Below are positions 1,769-32,328 of a DNA stretch of 33,824 bases, piece by piece. Origin of the DNA: Planctomycetales bacterium 4572_13 (lineage in GTDB: Bacteria > Planctomycetota > Phycisphaerae > Sedimentisphaerales > Anaerohalosphaeraceae); assembly GCA_002084585.1 (NCBI GenBank), contig NBLM01000006.1, forward strand, positions 1 through 33,824, in the 5' to 3' direction. Numbering within the stretch: position 1 is the first letter of the stretch; each line of letters begins with the position of its first letter. The translations under genes and the position numbers were made by a program. A model generated the notes under the pieces. It saw nothing but the letters and a program-made list of their open reading frames with translations. It did no database searches and was not told where the DNA came from.

Positions 1769-3301
1769 ATGTTTGTGCAAAAGAGGTTAAAGAAATTCGC
1801 GAGCGGCAAAAACTGTCTCGCGACGATGTTAATTTTCGCCTTGGCGGCGGCGTTCTGCGTCCCGCACTGCCTCGCCGAAAAACCGCAGACGCACGAAAAG
1901 TCGGTTGTGATGATCCTGGCGGTACATCAGGAATATGATTTCGCAACCCCGTGGAAAAAGGGATCGATGGGGCAGGGAACCGGCTCCGGCTTTGTCATTG
2001 AAGGCAACCGGATTTTGACCAATGCGCACAATGTTGCCAATCAGCGATATATCGAGGTCAAAAAGCAGAATCTCGCCAAACGCTATCCCGCGCAGGTTCA
2101 GTTTGTCGGCCACGACTGCGATCTGGCACTGATTACGGTAGTTGATCCCGTTTTTTTTTCAGACACTATTCCGCTTTCTTTCGGCCCCCTGCCGCAAGTC
2201 AATACAGCCGTACAAACATGCGGTTTTCCGATGGGCGGACGACAGGTTTCAATCACCAAAGGCATTGTATCTCGTTTAGAAAGAACAACTTACAGCCATA
2301 GTCAGTCGAGCCAGCACCTCGTTGTCCAGACCGACGCCGCCATCAACCCCGGCAACTCCGGCGGACCTGTCCTGCAGGACGGCAAAGTGGTCGGTGTTGC
2401 TTTCCAGGGCCTGACGACAGCAGACAACATCGGCTTTATGATACCAACAACAGTTATCAAGCATTTTTTGGCAGATGTCGAAGACGGCGATTATAATGGT
2501 TTTGGTAAGCTGGGAGTGGCGTTGTACCCTGGGTTGCACAGTCGGCATTATAAAGAATACCTGCGGATCCCCCCTGCTGAGGAGGGTGTGGTCGTTACCG
2601 ATATTCCCCTGAATAGCCCCTCGTTTGGAAAGCTGAAAAAAGGGGATGTTCTGACGAAAATCGGCGATTTTAATATTGATAATGACGGTCAAATCCTTAT
2701 TGACGACCTTTCGCTGGGGTTCAGTGAAGCCATGGATCGCAAACAGATTGGCGAAAAACTCCTACTGGCCTATTACAGAAACGGCGAAAAACAGCAGCTG
2801 GAACTTTCTGTTGTAGCGGACACCCCCGTCATTCCGTGGAATCTCCTTTATGATGTTAAGCCGGACTATCGTGTTTACGCGGGGCTGACATTTGTTCAGT
2901 TGAATCGAAACTTCCTCAGCAGATGGGGCCGAAAGTGGGTTACCGACATTCCGTTCGATCTGAGATACCTCTTTCTTGAACATACCCAGCTCAATAAAAA
3001 CCCGCTTCGCGAAGAATATATTATTATTTCAGAGATTCTTCCCGATGAGGTCAATGCTTATCTGGGGCCTTATAAAAATCATGTCATAGAAAGCATTAAC
3101 GGCATTGCTGTAAATAAGTTAGAAGATATTGACACCGCCCTCGAAACAAATGAAGATGGCTTCTGGATTTTCAAATTTATCGATAATGAGGCCCCGATGA
3201 TTGTCGATGCCAACAAGGCCACACAGCGACGGGACTCTATCATGCAAAAATATCAAATTCCTGTGGAGAAGAAAAAAAATGAAAAGAAATTTTTGTTTTA
3301 G
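1769..3301 (+). CDS. HtrA/DegP-like periplasmic serine protease with PDZ-like C-terminus
   Basis: A 510-residue exported protein. A signal peptide covers about residues 1-36 (basic start, hydrophobic core, HCLA). A trypsin-like S1C domain covers about 44-240 with a complete triad: His87 in TNAHNVA, Asp118 in DCDLALI and Ser197 in PGNSGGP. From about 245 come PDZ-like segments (KLGVALYP, GVVVTDIPLNSPSFGKLKKGDVLTKI split over 270-300) and a second such region towards the end (about 430-470). HtrA proteins degrade or guard misfolded envelope proteins. The start follows GAAAGG at good spacing. Its last 23 bases overlap the start of the next gene, so the two are co-translated. Confidence 0.85.
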   Translation: MFVQKRLKKFASGKNCLATMLIFALAAAFCVPHCLAEKPQTHEKSVVMILAVHQEYDFATPWKKGSMGQGTGSGFVIEGNRILTNAHNVANQRYIEVKKQNLAKRYPAQVQFVGHDCDLALITVVDPVFFSDTIPLSFGPLPQVNTAVQTCGFPMGGRQVSITKGIVSRLERTTYSHSQSSQHLVVQTDAAINPGNSGGPVLQDGKVVGVAFQGLTTADNIGFMIPTTVIKHFLADVEDGDYNGFGKLGVALYPGLHSRHYKEYLRIPPAEEGVVVTDIPLNSPSFGKLKKGDVLTKIGDFNIDNDGQILIDDLSLGFSEAMDRKQIGEKLLLAYYRNGEKQQLELSVVADTPVIPWNLLYDVKPDYRVYAGLTFVQLNRNFLSRWGRKWVTDIPFDLRYLFLEHTQLNKNPLREEYIIISEILPDEVNAYLGPYKNHVIESINGIAVNKLEDIDTALETNEDGFWIFKFIDNEAPMIVDANKATQRRDSIMQKYQIPVEKKKNEKKFLF

Positions 3302-4757
3302 TGCAGGCCTTTTGCTTTGTTTGGCCGCTGCGACAAGCTGTTTTGCCGATACGGTGGATTTAACTGAGAAAATGAAACCGTCATTGGTCTATCTGGAAGT
3401 CTCGACGAGTTCTTATGACCTGTCCCAGCCATGGAAACAAACACCCATCGCAAAGAATGGCGGCTACGGTTGTGCGGTCGGACCGTATGAAATCCTGACA
3501 ACAGCCGAAGTGGTAGCAGACGCAACTCTTATTCAGGTAATGCGTTATGGAAAAAATGCTCGCCTTGGCGCAACCGTTAAAGCCGTCGATTATGAGTGCA
3601 ATCTTTGCCTGTTAACTCTCGACAAAGACGCGGCGGATACACCCCTAATCCCCCTGTCGTTCGAAAAATTGTATCCGAAAGGAAAGCAGCTAACGACTTA
3701 CTGGCTGTCTTCGGGCAACCACCTGACAACGGCTCGTTCAACGCTGGACCGGGCACAGATGAAACGCTCGTTTGTTTCATTTGTCAATAATCTGACTTTT
3801 TTCGTGACGAATGTCTCCCGCCCTTTCGGCGATGGCCAGATATGTTGCTATGGAGAAAATGTCATCGGTATTGCCGGATGGGGAACGGATTCAGAGAGTG
3901 GAATTATTCCGTCTGAAACAATTAGTCGATTCTTAACTTATTGTAATAAAAAGAGTTATGTTGGCTTTGCAACGGCTGGCTTCGTGGCTTCCACCCTGTT
4001 GGACCCTGCCAGAAGAAAGTATCTCAATATCCCGGACAATATTGAATACGGCATTTATGTCAGCGATGTTTTCACCATTGGAACCGGAAGCAGCGAACTA
4101 AAAACCGGCGATGTTATCCTGTCAATCAAAGGGCAGAAGCTAAACGCCTACGGCCGCTATGAGCATCCGGAATACAAACGCATTTCCTTTCACCATATAC
4201 TCTCACAGACTCCCAACGGAGATATAATCCCGTTTGAAATCGTTCGAGACGGCAAGATTACAACGCTTGACATCACAGCCAGAAGCATTAAGTCCGATAA
4301 CATGCTTGTTCCGTATTATACATACGGGAAACAGCCCGAATTCATGGTTGTCGGCGGATACATCTTCCAAAAGCTGAACCGTGACTACCTGACAATGTGG
4401 GGCAGCAATTCAGGCGATAAAGCCCCCCCGCACTTTTATCATTACAAAAGAGACTTTGCCTTTAAGCCGTCTAAGGAGCGAAGGGACATTGTTATCCTGA
4501 GCTTCGTCTTCCCCGCTGAGATCAACCTCGGTTACCAGAAAATATCGCAACTGGTTGTCGATTCGGTAAATGACACAAAGGTTACATCGATGAAAAACTT
4601 CGTCAATCTTGTAAATGAAACCGAAAACGAGTCCATTAAAATCACCTTCGAGATGGACTCCCCCACGCTTATCATCCCAAAATACGAGCTGGCTCTGGCA
4701 AATATGCAGATTGCCAAGTCATATGGGGTAACGAAAATGGTGCATCTCGATGAATAA
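3279..4757 (+). CDS. HtrA-like pseudoprotease, paralogue of the preceding gene
   Basis: A 492-residue exported protein that aligns along its whole length with the gene before it. The signal peptide is about residues 1-23 (MKRNFCFSAGLL...CFA). Shared landmarks include PWK, the ILTTAEVVA block, a DYECNLCLL block, PLSFEKLYP and the C-terminal FxQLNRxxLxxWG motif. All three catalytic positions are lost: His becomes Glu77 (TTAEVVA), Asp becomes Asn108 (ECNLCLL), and the PGNSGGP loop becomes RPFGDGQ (about 171-177). It cannot be a normal serine protease and probably acts as a binding or regulatory partner. The start at 3279 has GTGGAG just upstream. A frame reaching back to 3201 exists but lies wholly inside the first gene. 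Confidence 0.8.
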   Translation: MKRNFCFSAGLLLCLAAATSCFADTVDLTEKMKPSLVYLEVSTSSYDLSQPWKQTPIAKNGGYGCAVGPYEILTTAEVVADATLIQVMRYGKNARLGATVKAVDYECNLCLLTLDKDAADTPLIPLSFEKLYPKGKQLTTYWLSSGNHLTTARSTLDRAQMKRSFVSFVNNLTFFVTNVSRPFGDGQICCYGENVIGIAGWGTDSESGIIPSETISRFLTYCNKKSYVGFATAGFVASTLLDPARRKYLNIPDNIEYGIYVSDVFTIGTGSSELKTGDVILSIKGQKLNAYGRYEHPEYKRISFHHILSQTPNGDIIPFEIVRDGKITTLDITARSIKSDNMLVPYYTYGKQPEFMVVGGYIFQKLNRDYLTMWGSNSGDKAPPHFYHYKRDFAFKPSKERRDIVILSFVFPAEINLGYQKISQLVVDSVNDTKVTSMKNFVNLVNETENESIKITFEMDSPTLIIPKYELALANMQIAKSYGVTKMVHLDE

Positions 4758-4778: not shown

Positions 4779-4816
4779 AAAACAGGGGTGTTTCACATGA
4801 AACACCCCTGTTTTTT
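4779..4816 (+). terminator. rho-independent terminator built on a parS palindrome
   Basis: A perfect inverted repeat with 17-bp arms, AAAACAGGGGTGTTTCA at 4779-4795 and its complement at 4798-4814, with a 2-base centre. The T run continues to 4816. It lies 21 bp after the HtrA-like pair and has the GC-rich stem and T tract of an intrinsic terminator. The inner 16 bases are a parS site (separate entry). Confidence 0.7.
4789..4804 (+). promoter_or_regulatory. parS: parS site 1 (ParB binding)
   Basis: TGTTTCACATGAAACA differs from the widely conserved chromosomal parS TGTTTCACGTGAAACA at one central base. It stands 155 bp before the parB start. parS sites load ParB clamps for chromosome segregation and usually lie close to the origin. 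Confidence 0.88.
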
Positions 4817-4845: not shown

Positions 4846-4861
4846 TGTTTCATGTGAAACA
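4846..4861 (-). promoter_or_regulatory. parS: parS site 2 (ParB binding)
   Basis: On the plus strand this reads TGTTTCATGTGAAACA, the exact reverse complement of site 1, so the two sites are inverted with centres 57 bp apart. It is one base from the consensus. It sits in the parB leader, so ParB binding could also influence parB transcription. Confidence 0.88.
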
Positions 4862-4958
4862 GTATTTTTGAATTAGTTCTGGTTTTTTGTAATTATTTTT
4901 GTATAAGTGACTCGATAAGAGAAAGGAATCTATTTAACTTATTTGTATGGAGGCAAAA

Positions 4959-5891
4959 ATGTCGGAAACAAAAAAAATCAAAAAACCCCATCTCGGACGC
5001 GGCTTGGAAGCGTTGCTTGGCCCCATGACAAAACAAACCCCCAACCTGGATAACTCCGAAACTGCATCCAAGTTTCCGACAGACCCAAAGCTTCAGCTTT
5101 TCCAAAGCGAACTTCCGATCGATCAGATTGAAGCCAACCCATACCAGCCAAGAACAGTCTGGGATGAGCAGCAGCTTGATACTCTGATGCAATCCATTAA
5201 GGAAAACGGGATTATCCAGCCAATCATCGTGCGTAAGAATACGGATGGCTATGAGATCATAGCAGGGGAACGGCGTTATCGAGCGGCCTGTATGGCAGGG
5301 CTGGAGAAAGTGCCGGTTCTGGAGCGAAAGGCAACTGACGATGAGATGCTCGAATTGGCATTGGTTGAGAACATCCACCGTACAGACCTGAATCCAATTG
5401 AACGGGCCAAGGCCTATCAGCGATTCATTGACACCTTTAATTTGAGCCAGACGGAGGCCGCGAAACGGCTCGGTGAAGATCGAACAGTTGTAGCTAACCA
5501 CTTGAGGATACTTAACTTACCGACAGACATTAAGAATATGTTATCGGACCAAAGACTCAGTATGGGACATGCAAGGGCGATCCTTGCTTTGCCAAACGAT
5601 GATCTCAGAAGGAAGCTGGCCAATCGTGCGATGGCAGGGCGGTTGAGTGTGCGGGAGGTCGAACGGCTGGTCAGAAAGCACCTCGAGGGCAAGTCAGAAA
5701 AGGTTGTTCATATCAAGGAAAAGGAGGCCCATATTGTTGACTTAGAGCGCCGTTTGCAAACACTGCTCGGCACCAAGGTCAACATCAAGCCCAATAAACG
5801 CAGCAATCGCGGCCGAATCATTATTGATTACCACTCAATCGATGAATTTGACCGGCTAACAGAGCAAATAGGGCTTACAGTAGAGGAGTAA
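4959..5891 (+). CDS. parB: ParB chromosome-partitioning CTPase
   Basis: A 310-residue ParB/Spo0J protein. The N-terminus carries LGRGLEALLG (residues 12-21), the ParA-interacting motif. The CTP-binding domain has IEANPYQPR (about 57-65), GERRYRAA (103-110) and ENIHRTDLNPIE (137-148). The helix-turn-helix follows (LSQTEAAKRLGEDRTVVANHLRIL, split around 152-175) and a C-terminal dimerisation part ends the protein. The start is the ATG at 4959 because GGAGG at 4949-4953 lies 5 bases before it. A longer frame from 4947 would place that ribosome site inside the gene. Two parS sites precede it, and no parA is adjacent, which is unusual. Confidence 0.95.
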   Translation: MSETKKIKKPHLGRGLEALLGPMTKQTPNLDNSETASKFPTDPKLQLFQSELPIDQIEANPYQPRTVWDEQQLDTLMQSIKENGIIQPIIVRKNTDGYEIIAGERRYRAACMAGLEKVPVLERKATDDEMLELALVENIHRTDLNPIERAKAYQRFIDTFNLSQTEAAKRLGEDRTVVANHLRILNLPTDIKNMLSDQRLSMGHARAILALPNDDLRRKLANRAMAGRLSVREVERLVRKHLEGKSEKVVHIKEKEAHIVDLERRLQTLLGTKVNIKPNKRSNRGRIIIDYHSIDEFDRLTEQIGLTVEE

Positions 5892-26928: not shown

Positions 26929-29373
<2,445 letters not shown>

Positions 29374-29730
29374 TTACTCCCTGTTATTATTTCTGATCGG
29401 TACGACCTTGATTTTCTGTATCCCGCAACGGGGAGCCAGTTGTTTTATTTTGTTTAATAATTCACCTGAAAGCATCTGGGCCTGGTGCATATATGGCCCC
29501 GTCGCTGCCTGAAGATAAAGGGTGCTGCCGACCCGTTTATCCAGCCGACAAAACGGTTGCAGTGTCGGCGGAACAACCGCTTCCCAGGCATCCATAATCA
29601 CCGCATTCTTCATAAGGGTGCGATTGTGATATTTCAAATAAGAAAAAACCTCATCCCCTAAACAGGACTCGGTTTGCCGGGGCTTGTGTTGCCAACTCAA
29701 GGCACCTTTTAATCGTCTTTCTTCATCCAT
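29374..29730 (-). CDS. dciA: DUF721/DciA-like helicase-operator protein
   Basis: A 118-residue protein with the DUF721 core: AWEAVVPPTLQPFCRLDKRVGSTLYLQAATGPYMHQAQML (split over about 48-87), LLNKIKQLAP and IKVVPI at the end. DciA helps load the replicative helicase DnaB in bacteria that lack DnaC. Placement between dnaN (6 bp gap) and gyrB (9 bp gap) supports that role. The N-terminal 30 residues are not recognisable. The symbol is by family and context. Confidence 0.8.
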   Translation of the reverse strand: MDEERRLKGALSWQHKPRQTESCLGDEVFSYLKYHNRTLMKNAVIMDAWEAVVPPTLQPFCRLDKRVGSTLYLQAATGPYMHQAQMLSGELLNKIKQLAPRCGIQKIKVVPIRNNNRE

Positions 29731-29736
29731 GACATT

Positions 29737-30834
29737 TTAGAGGTTTACCGGCATTACGATATACAGGAAATTACTGCCGCTCTTGATGAGGCCGGGGCGG
29801 TCTGACTGGCCGAGGTGCAATTCGAAATCATCCGCTTTCAGCACGCGCAGTACATCAACCAAAAATTGTGGATTGAACCCAATCTCAATCGGCTCGGCCT
29901 CATATTCAATCGCCATATCAATCTTTGCGTCGCCCGTTTCCGGTGTCCGACTGGTAAAGACCAGCGTCCCTTTGTCCAGGGCCAACTTGATTCCCTTGCT
30001 GTCTTCATTGGCCAACAGGGCTGCCCGGCGAACGGCGCTCAGAACAGTGTCCCTTGGAAGCGTAATTTTCTTATCGTGGTCCTTCGGGATGATGTCGTCG
30101 TATTTCGGAAAGTTCCCTTCAACCAAATTCGAACTGATCACAACCGTCTCACACGCCAACACAATCTGGTTGTTGACAAACCGCACCTGGACCATCCCGT
30201 CGTCGTGTGCGGGTATCTTATCCAGTAGCGACATCGTCTTGGCCGGTACAATAATTCTATTCTCCGGCAACTTCGCTGTTTTTTCAAGAGCCACCGTCGC
30301 TTTTGCCAGTCGTCGCCCGTCCGTTGCCACCAGCGATAGTTTTTTGCCGGATACTTCCCAGAGAATCCCGTTCAGCGCGTAGCGAGTGCTTTCTCGCGCG
30401 GCTGAAAAGATGGTATATTCAATGCCTTCCTGAAGGGCACTTAACCTGACCTCTAAGTCCGCTTCGCCACCAAATCCCGGGATCGCAGGGTACTGTTGCG
30501 GGTCGTGGCTATAAATCGTAAATCGACTGTCCGAACCGATCAGATGCACCGCCGACTCCGTGGCTTCTAACACAATGACCTCATCAAAACTTTCCCGAAC
30601 GATCGAAGATAACTTGTCCGCAGGCACTATAATATCTCCCGCCTCGCCGATATCCACCTGCGAAATCAGGCAGGTAATCCCCGCTTCCAGATCTGTTGCG
30701 CTAATCCGAACAGCATCCTGCTCTGTAGCAATCCGTAAACACTGCAAAATCGGTTTGGGCGTCCTGCTGGGGATGATGCTGGTGACTAAGTTCAATGCTT
30801 CCTGGAGTGCCGAACGGTTAAATTTCACTTTCAT
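29737..30834 (-). CDS. dnaN: DNA polymerase III sliding clamp (beta subunit)
   Basis: A 365-residue beta clamp. MKVKFNRSALQEALNLVTSIIP is the usual start, then PILQCLRIATEQDAVRISATDLE, ESTRYALNGILWEV (about 155-168), LVATDGRRLAKA (about 175-186) and the ending LYIVMPVNL, which matches the family YxxMPxxL terminus. It holds the replicase on DNA. The start at 30834 has AGAGGCG upstream. A longer frame adds 14 basic residues. It leads the operon and faces the candidate origin. dnaA, usually its neighbour, is missing. Confidence 0.96.
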   Translation of the reverse strand: MKVKFNRSALQEALNLVTSIIPSRTPKPILQCLRIATEQDAVRISATDLEAGITCLISQVDIGEAGDIIVPADKLSSIVRESFDEVIVLEATESAVHLIGSDSRFTIYSHDPQQYPAIPGFGGEADLEVRLSALQEGIEYTIFSAARESTRYALNGILWEVSGKKLSLVATDGRRLAKATVALEKTAKLPENRIIVPAKTMSLLDKIPAHDDGMVQVRFVNNQIVLACETVVISSNLVEGNFPKYDDIIPKDHDKKITLPRDTVLSAVRRAALLANEDSKGIKLALDKGTLVFTSRTPETGDAKIDMAIEYEAEPIEIGFNPQFLVDVLRVLKADDFELHLGQSDRPGLIKSGSNFLYIVMPVNL

Positions 30835-31336
30835 AAATCGCCTCTTTTCTGATTTTGTTCTTGGCCTTCTCTGCATGGTTTTGGATTGCAGTGATCCGAG
30901 CCGATACTATACACGAAAAAAACGGCTTAGGAAAGTGTTTTCAGAACAAAACAAGAGATTTTTGAACAAAACAAAGGTCGCCTAAGAGGGGCGATAGATT
31001 TACACAAAAGAATAACTAATATAATAAGTAAATAAAGACTTATTGGTATTTGTTATATGGTCAGTGAGATTGTGGGGTTTTTGAGCGGCCCGTCTATAAC
31101 TCCTTATTTTATAACAGATTATATAAAATGGAGAAGGTTCGCGGATGTGGACAAGCTGTTAAGAAATGTGGCATTAAACTTGTTACATTCACAAAAACCC
31201 ACAACCCAGCTATCCCCGCCGCAAAACTCACAGTCTGGCACTCACATTCTCTACAGGGGAACTCACAGGTTATCAACAACGCTGTCGGCGGCTTGAGATA
31301 AGTTTCAGGCGGATTTTTGATTATTAAACGACCCTC
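30835..31336. other. oriC: gene-free region, candidate chromosomal origin (oriC)
   Basis: 502 bp without a supportable gene between ftsY and dnaN. It contains DnaA-box-like 9-mers, each one base from TTWTNCACA: ATTTACACA (30998-31006), TTGTCCACA on the minus strand (31154-31146) and TTATCAACA (31270-31278). Two very AT-rich tracts (about 31000-31060 and 31090-31132) could unwind. Two copies of GAACAAAACAA (30944-30954, 30964-30974) stand 20 bp apart. The neighbouring dnaN, dciA and gyrB, and parS in the window, fit an origin. No box is a perfect consensus match, so this is a candidate only. Confidence 0.5.
30906..30934 (-). promoter_or_regulatory. candidate promoter of the dnaN-dciA-gyrB operon
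   Basis: On the minus strand TTTCCT (30934-30929), 17 bases, TATAGT (30911-30906). The -10 box is good and the -35 box weak. It would give a leader of about 65 bases before dnaN. Confidence 0.4.
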
Positions 31337-32260
31337 TTAATTGAACAACGCCTCGATAAATTCGTCCGGGTCGAACTCGGCGATGTCTTCGGGCGTCTCG
31401 CCCAAGCCGACAAACTTGACGGGGATGTCCAGCATATCCTTGATTGCGATGACGATGCCGCCGCGGGCGGTGCCGTCGAGTTTGGCCAAAAAGATCCCCG
31501 TTACATTAATCGCGGCGGTAAACATTTTTGCCTGCACAATCGCGTTTTGGCCCGTTGTGCCGTCCACCACAAGGAGTACCTCGTGCGGCGCTTCGGGGAT
31601 GATCTTCGTAATCACCTTGCGGATCTTCGACAATTCGTCCATTAAATGTTTTTGCGTATGCAACCGCCCGGCGGTATCCATAATCAGATAATCCACATCT
31701 CTCGCCACCGCCGCCTGACAGGCATCATAGGCCACTGCCGCCGGGTCGGCCCCGGACTTATGCTTGACGATCTGGACGCCGATGCGTGCGGCCCAGATGG
31801 TCAACTGCTCCACCGCTGCGGCACGGAAGGTATCACAGGCCGCAACGATCACACGGCTGCCGGCCTTGTTCAAAGCATAAGCCAGCTTGGCAATGCTGGT
31901 GGTCTTGCCGGAACCGTTGATGCCCGCCACTAGAATCACTGTTGGACCGGAAGCGGCTTTATTTAGTTGGCGGCCCTGCTCGGGCCAATAACCCTTCATG
32001 TGTTCTTTTAAAAACGGCAGGATGTCATCGGTTTTTTTGATGGCTCCCGTTTTATAGGCCCCTCGAAGATCATCTATCAACTGCGAGGTGGTTTCCACGC
32101 CGATGTCATCACTAATGAGCGTTTCTTCAAGTTGCTCCAAAAGCGCGTCGTCAATATTCCGTCCCATCGTCAAAATCGAAGACAACCCTGACGATATCTT
32201 CCGCCGGGTTTTGCCCAGTCGTTCCTGTAAGTATTGAACTGTTTTTGTAAAGATACCCAT
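31337..32260 (-). CDS. ftsY: signal recognition particle receptor FtsY
   Basis: A 307-residue SRP GTPase. A short N helical bundle (LGKTRRKISSGLSSIL, about 14-29) is followed by the G domain: GINGSGKTTSIAKLA (P-loop, about 118-132), DTFRAAAVEQL, DTAGRLHT and AKLDGTARGG. The C-terminus has KFVGLGETPEDIAEFDPDEFIEALF, the hallmark of FtsY. The acidic A domain of the E. coli protein is absent, as in many bacteria. It docks SRP-bound ribosomes at the membrane. ATG 32260 follows AAAGGT; a longer frame from 32305 is not supported. It follows aroG by 68 bp. Confidence 0.95.
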   Translation of the reverse strand: MGIFTKTVQYLQERLGKTRRKISSGLSSILTMGRNIDDALLEQLEETLISDDIGVETTSQLIDDLRGAYKTGAIKKTDDILPFLKEHMKGYWPEQGRQLNKAASGPTVILVAGINGSGKTTSIAKLAYALNKAGSRVIVAACDTFRAAAVEQLTIWAARIGVQIVKHKSGADPAAVAYDACQAAVARDVDYLIMDTAGRLHTQKHLMDELSKIRKVITKIIPEAPHEVLLVVDGTTGQNAIVQAKMFTAAINVTGIFLAKLDGTARGGIVIAIKDMLDIPVKFVGLGETPEDIAEFDPDEFIEALFN

Positions 32261-32328
32261 ATATACCTTTATCTCAAAAAATCCGCGTTCATCTGTGAAA
32301 TCCACGGTTTCATTCTTTTTAGTTGCAG

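Follow-up and report, generated by a model that had tools for sequence, protein, structure and literature searches.

A predicted chromosomal replication origin beside dnaN, and apart from dnaA, in a Sedimentisphaerales bacterium

Introduction

Where would a chromosome begin to replicate when dnaN stands without dnaA at its side? The question is raised by a gap of 502 bp (positions 30835-31336) in the window, the stretch of 33,824 nucleotides analyzed here, which makes up the entire contig C52; the genome itself is fragmented, with 119 contigs totalling 1.81 Mb and a completeness of 83%. The gap is bounded by ftsY and by dnaN-dciA-gyrB, all of these genes being on the minus strand, and the description of the gap, genes and strands in the initial annotation, which proposed a candidate replication origin at this site, was confirmed. 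The proposal is supported by a fixed geometry of sequence elements, their conservation, linkage to parS, the GC skew of one complete relative and dnaA-linked copies of the element in sister orders. Judged from these comparisons of sequence, the gap is almost certainly the chromosomal oriC of this Sedimentisphaerales bacterium.

Gene neighborhood of the gap

The features of the window are collected in Table 1. The dnaN product is up to 92% identical to uncultured Planctomycetota proteins labelled Phycisphaerae and Sedimentisphaerales, and the gene order dnaN-dciA-gyrB is retained in nearly all compared relatives. The conserved promoter-like block in the dnaN-proximal part of the gap probably serves dnaN. 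On the ftsY side the contig ends about 2.5 kb from the gap. The parS sites and parB lie about 25 kb away, and yidC and mnmE, which are frequent neighbours of origins, are also encoded in the window. Immediately before parS are two successive HtrA/Deg-like genes with PDZ_3 domains (positions 1769-4757), the second of which gave no trypsin-domain match in the domain search.

Table 1. Genes and predicted origin features of the window (positions are those of the whole stretch)
Feature	Position	Strand	Basis or remark
parS site	4789..4804	.	one mismatch
parS site	4846..4861	.	one mismatch
parB (chromosome partition)	4947..5891	+	PF17762, PF02195, PF23552; 55% identity to G042 ParB
gyrB	26929..29364	-	Pfam
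dciA (helicase operator/loader)	29374..29730	-	PF05258
dnaN (sliding clamp)	29737..30834	-	TIGR00663, 260 bits
Promoter-like block TTTTTTTCGTGTATAGTAT	30904..30922	-	conserved in alignments; putative function
AT-rich unwinding region (predicted)	30994..31059	.	contains the window's most AT-rich 50-mer
oriC core element (R1 model; from box 1 as far as the beginning of the unwinding region)	31030..31279	-	124 bits, E 5e-36, in its own genome, which supplied one of the 32 training sequences of R1
DnaA-trio-like run, six triplets (ATA TAA CAA ATA CCA ATA)	31041..31058	-	NTA phase test
Degenerate tandem box block CACAATCTCAC, immediately preceding the trios	31064..31074	-	conserved columns, alignment A1
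Predicted DnaA box 2, TTGTCCACA, in the opposite orientation to box 1	31146..31154	-	
Phased weak half-sites following box 1	31240..31269	-	TGT at +11, +23, +32
Predicted DnaA box 1, TTATCAACA (TTATCCACA in most relatives)	31270..31278	+	
ftsY, the other border of the gap	31337..32305	-	TIGR00064

Anatomy of the conserved element

The near-consensus DnaA boxes first noted on both strands of the gap are present as TTATCAACA (31270, +) and TTGTCCACA (31146, -), each differing from TTATCCACA at a single position. Taken alone they are weak evidence, as two such boxes in 502 bp are only mildly unusual; 11 matches of this quality occur across the whole 33.8-kb window, and counting boxes in the window alone was set aside as evidence of an origin. 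The strength of the box evidence lies instead in conservation across relatives. Across 33 regions upstream of dnaN, from 33 species of the order, 21 perfect TTATCCACA boxes were observed, where shuffled sequences would give 0.25; when one mismatch was allowed the count rose to 60, compared with 5.6 expected. The positions of the boxes are also constrained. The inverted pair TGTGGATAACCTGT ... ACAGGTTATCCACA is spaced by 122-126 bp in 27 of the 32 sequences and by 111-113 bp in the other five, two classes that differ by about one helical turn, and TGT half-sites are found at +11, +23 and +32 from box 1 in 28, 23 and 18 of the 32, respectively. A direct repeat of 20 bp, noted as part of the same candidate, does occur (30933-30952 and 30953-30972, 80%), but it is not maintained as a repeat in the genus alignment and is therefore regarded as incidental.

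On the side of the unwinding region, the aligned blocks run in the order CTCACAATnTCACnG then CATATGACAAATACTAATAA and end in phased triplets; box 2 and the trio block are separated by 96-100 bp in 32 of 32 sequences. The triplets read NTA, which is complementary to the motif of the DnaA-trios (3'-GAT-5', central A conserved; PMC8287927). Counted whether or not they are consecutive, at least three NTA triplets fall in one phase in every one of the 32 sequences and none reaches three in the other phases; the mean count is 3.9 of 6 against a shuffle maximum of 1.5, with triplets 2 and 3 often deviating. A basal unwinding system (BUS) is expected to have at least three consecutive DnaA-trios with the central A conserved. 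It is also expected to have, no more than 16 bp from the trios, a DnaA box with two mismatches or fewer (PMC8287927), and such a box was not found in the 32 sequences: the closest strong box is the one 96-100 bp away, and the tandem block beside the trios (CTCACAATnTCAC) is about four mismatches from the box consensus. AT-rich DNA had also been claimed for the gap, and the 50-mers starting at 30994-31014 do include the AT maximum of the window (84%). Among relatives, the 50-mer of lowest stability upstream of dnaN begins no more than 13 bp from the first base of the trios in 27 of 29 species; an AT-rich unwinding element adjoining the boxes, one of the tests of an oriC, is found both in the window and across these species. 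As predicted from these features, the boxes, the trios and the unwinding site follow one another ahead of dnaN in the arrangement that a working origin has.

Occurrence and linkage in relatives

The element was described by R1, a sequence model of 255 positions whose training set includes the complete genome G037 and excludes two others, G042 and G046. A single strong copy was detected in 57 of 59 relatives, and in all of the 34 good genomes. Of 55 informative genomes, 49 have the element upstream of dnaN (our own count), and it is unlinked from that gene in G022, G037, G042, G044, G046 and G048. In three complete genomes of the order, the dnaN-element distance is 14 kb in G037, 303 kb in G046 and 793 kb in G042, and a profile built solely from dnaN-linked copies recovers the G037 element, 13.7 kb from dnaN, with an E value of 7e-18. 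G161, of another order, has 1.17 Mb between the element and dnaN, and 78 kb between the element and parS.

Sites of parS and par operons are normally within the origin-proximal fifth of the chromosome (PMC7022226), and nearness to parS/parB was a further test of an oriC. The element is 2.6 kb from parS in G042 and 2.2 kb in G046, in both cases beside parB, and within 2-29 kb of parS/parB when G037 is included. In five of six complete genomes the element-parS distance is 2-78 kb, the exception being G095 at 324 kb; in the window it is 25 kb. Over five genera, proximity to parS exceeds chance most clearly for the element (combined p 1e-5), as compared with dnaN (0.002) and the two dnaA genes (0.28 and 0.04).

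Outside the order, the R1 element is found 0.1-0.3 kb 3' of the DnaA C-terminal domain, on the same strand as dnaA, in eight genomes (G063, G069, G074, G081, G091, G098, G106 and G132), and beside dnaN in G095. The R1 search gave no significant match in a family having dnaA adjoining dnaN (G060, G087, G151), and R1 was undetected in several further families of the class. The simplest history suggested by these positions would begin with an ancestral cluster of dnaA-oriC-dnaN-dciA-gyrB; in the order of the window, dnaA would then have left it while oriC stayed with dnaN.

GC skew

The initial annotation proposed GC skew as a check, with a distant minimum counting against an origin at the gap, and the check was carried out in relatives. 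Complete genome G037 has two skew arms, with a negative-to-positive switch at 3.12-3.16 Mb and the opposite switch near 1.0 Mb; the profile was drawn from forty samples of 10-20 kb, denser near dnaN, of which the first twenty already gave the same pattern. The element, at 3.160 Mb, is among the best 0.3% of positions (permutation p 0.002), so that the minimum is not far from it. Both dnaA genes of this genome are off the origin-type switch, one being mid-arm and the other (dnaA2) near the terminus-type switch. The skew of G042 agrees weakly with the element (best 5% of positions, pattern p 0.30). That of G015 (complete, 4.25 Mb; loci L083-L102) is scrambled, flipping between about -0.27 and +0.32 from one 20-kb sample to the next, as though many inversions of the chromosome had occurred recently. 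Skew was also scrambled, or did not point to dnaN, in G172 and G083, neither of which has a detectable element. Skew rises from upstream to downstream of dnaN (+/-20 kb) in the nine genomes having both flanks, with a change of sign in only part of them; local skew, whether in the window or within 20 kb of dnaN, has gene strand as a confounder and was rejected as origin evidence.

The two dnaA genes

As first observed, dnaA is absent beside the gap. The genome has a pair of dnaA genes, arranged in tandem on a separate contig, G000:C17 (L003:13716-15155 and L003:15280-16584), and both products pass NCBI's DnaA model. Two dnaA genes are likewise found in nearly all relatives, and at least two in 145 of 148 genomes of the class Phycisphaerae. 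In none of the searched relatives of the order does dnaA adjoin dnaN, the closest being 8 kb away in G040; dnaN without an adjacent dnaA is a trait of the order. The tandem arrangement of dnaA1 and dnaA2 is seen only in the genome of the window, the two genes being apart in relatives. A putative transposase-like gene (L003:17129-18175; our own reading) is located just past the tandem pair, where the contig ends. The DNA-reading helix is GKNHATV in DnaA1 and GRDH[ST]TV in both DnaA2 and E. coli DnaA, and DnaA1 may accordingly read DNA differently. No box enrichment was found upstream of dnaA2 in the genus, and that region was ruled out as an origin.

Alternative readings of the gap

Could the gap be only a long regulatory region, in which DnaA acts as a transcription factor for the dnaN-dciA-gyrB operon? 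The promoter-like block near dnaN and the position of the element upstream of dnaN in 49 of the 55 informative genomes would be accounted for in this way. However, the element is kept 14, 303 and 793 kb from dnaN in the three complete genomes in which the dnaN-upstream regions are themselves without boxes, which argues for an origin and not a dnaN promoter; in other orders it follows dnaA, and trios with an unwinding site are not features of promoters. A purely regulatory role is, on this evidence, extremely improbable.

Better boxes beside dnaA had been named as evidence that would count against the gap, and the region upstream of dnaA1 (L003:13222-13715) does contain a pair that is locally better: TTATCCACA and TTTTCCACA, inverted, with a separation of exactly 90 bp in the majority of ten genomes and with flanks that are conserved. 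As several complete genome records also begin at dnaA1, the true origin could be sought there, leaving the gap as a secondary DnaA-binding locus. Against this, the region matches R1 only partially (17.6 bits), parS and dnaA1 are 0.3-2.9 Mb apart in complete genomes, and G037 has no skew switch at dnaA1, while its dnaA2 is near the terminus-type switch. An origin at dnaA1 is thus very unlikely, if marginally less so than a purely regulatory gap, and the boxes upstream of dnaA1 probably provide for regulation of that gene by DnaA.

Proposed mechanism and significance

In the reading of the gap as oriC, DnaA binding, unwinding, actual initiation and the identity of the acting DnaA are predictions. 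DnaA-ATP would bind the two inverted high-affinity boxes and then fill the phased weak sites between them, reaching the degenerate tandem box. From there it would polymerize along the DnaA-trios and open the adjacent AT-rich DNA, which would admit the helicase, with DciA as its probable loader. A broader and decidedly tentative proposal, which we consider possible but doubtful, is that Phycisphaerae combine one rigid origin with two specialized DnaAs: the canonical DnaA2 would bind the origin, the altered DnaA1 would serve as co-initiator or regulator, and such a division might have allowed the origin to separate first from dnaA and afterwards from dnaN.

The predicted element provides a base-level, testable oriC for a large and mostly uncultured planctomycete order. 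Within one class, the same element is found next to dnaA, next to dnaN, or close to parS alone, a natural series by which the parts of an origin can be distinguished from the promoters of neighbouring genes. A caution also follows for complete genome records rotated to dnaA, which do not begin at the origin here. No published origin for the order, and no account of the arrangement described here, was found among the open-access papers searched on origins of Planctomycetes or Phycisphaerae and on paired dnaA genes.

Comparison with known origins

An origin beside dnaN after dnaA has moved elsewhere is unusual, with precedents; an origin unlinked from dnaA is already a known kind, given those of Synechococcus elongatus and E. 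coli. In S. elongatus PCC 7942, oriC is near dnaN at the skew switch and dnaA is encoded separately (PMC7198777), much as found here, although the lineage is unrelated, and in Phycisphaerae there are two dnaA genes and the element can also leave dnaN. The Bacillus subtilis BUS, with DnaA boxes 6/7 and DnaA-trios (PMC8287927), resembles the present element in its boxes, phased trios, unwinding DNA and position on the dnaN side; here, however, the trio-adjacent box is degenerate, the strong boxes are at least 96-100 bp off, and dnaA is not alongside. In E. coli, oriC is separated from dnaA (PMC8287927), and strong boxes flank weak 9-bp sites that are 2 bp apart, giving an 11-bp pitch (PMC6070618). 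The predicted Sedimentisphaerales origin likewise has strong boxes flanking weak sites at a pitch of about 11 bp, an unwinding element on one side and no dnaA beside it, but is shorter and has fewer recognisable sites.
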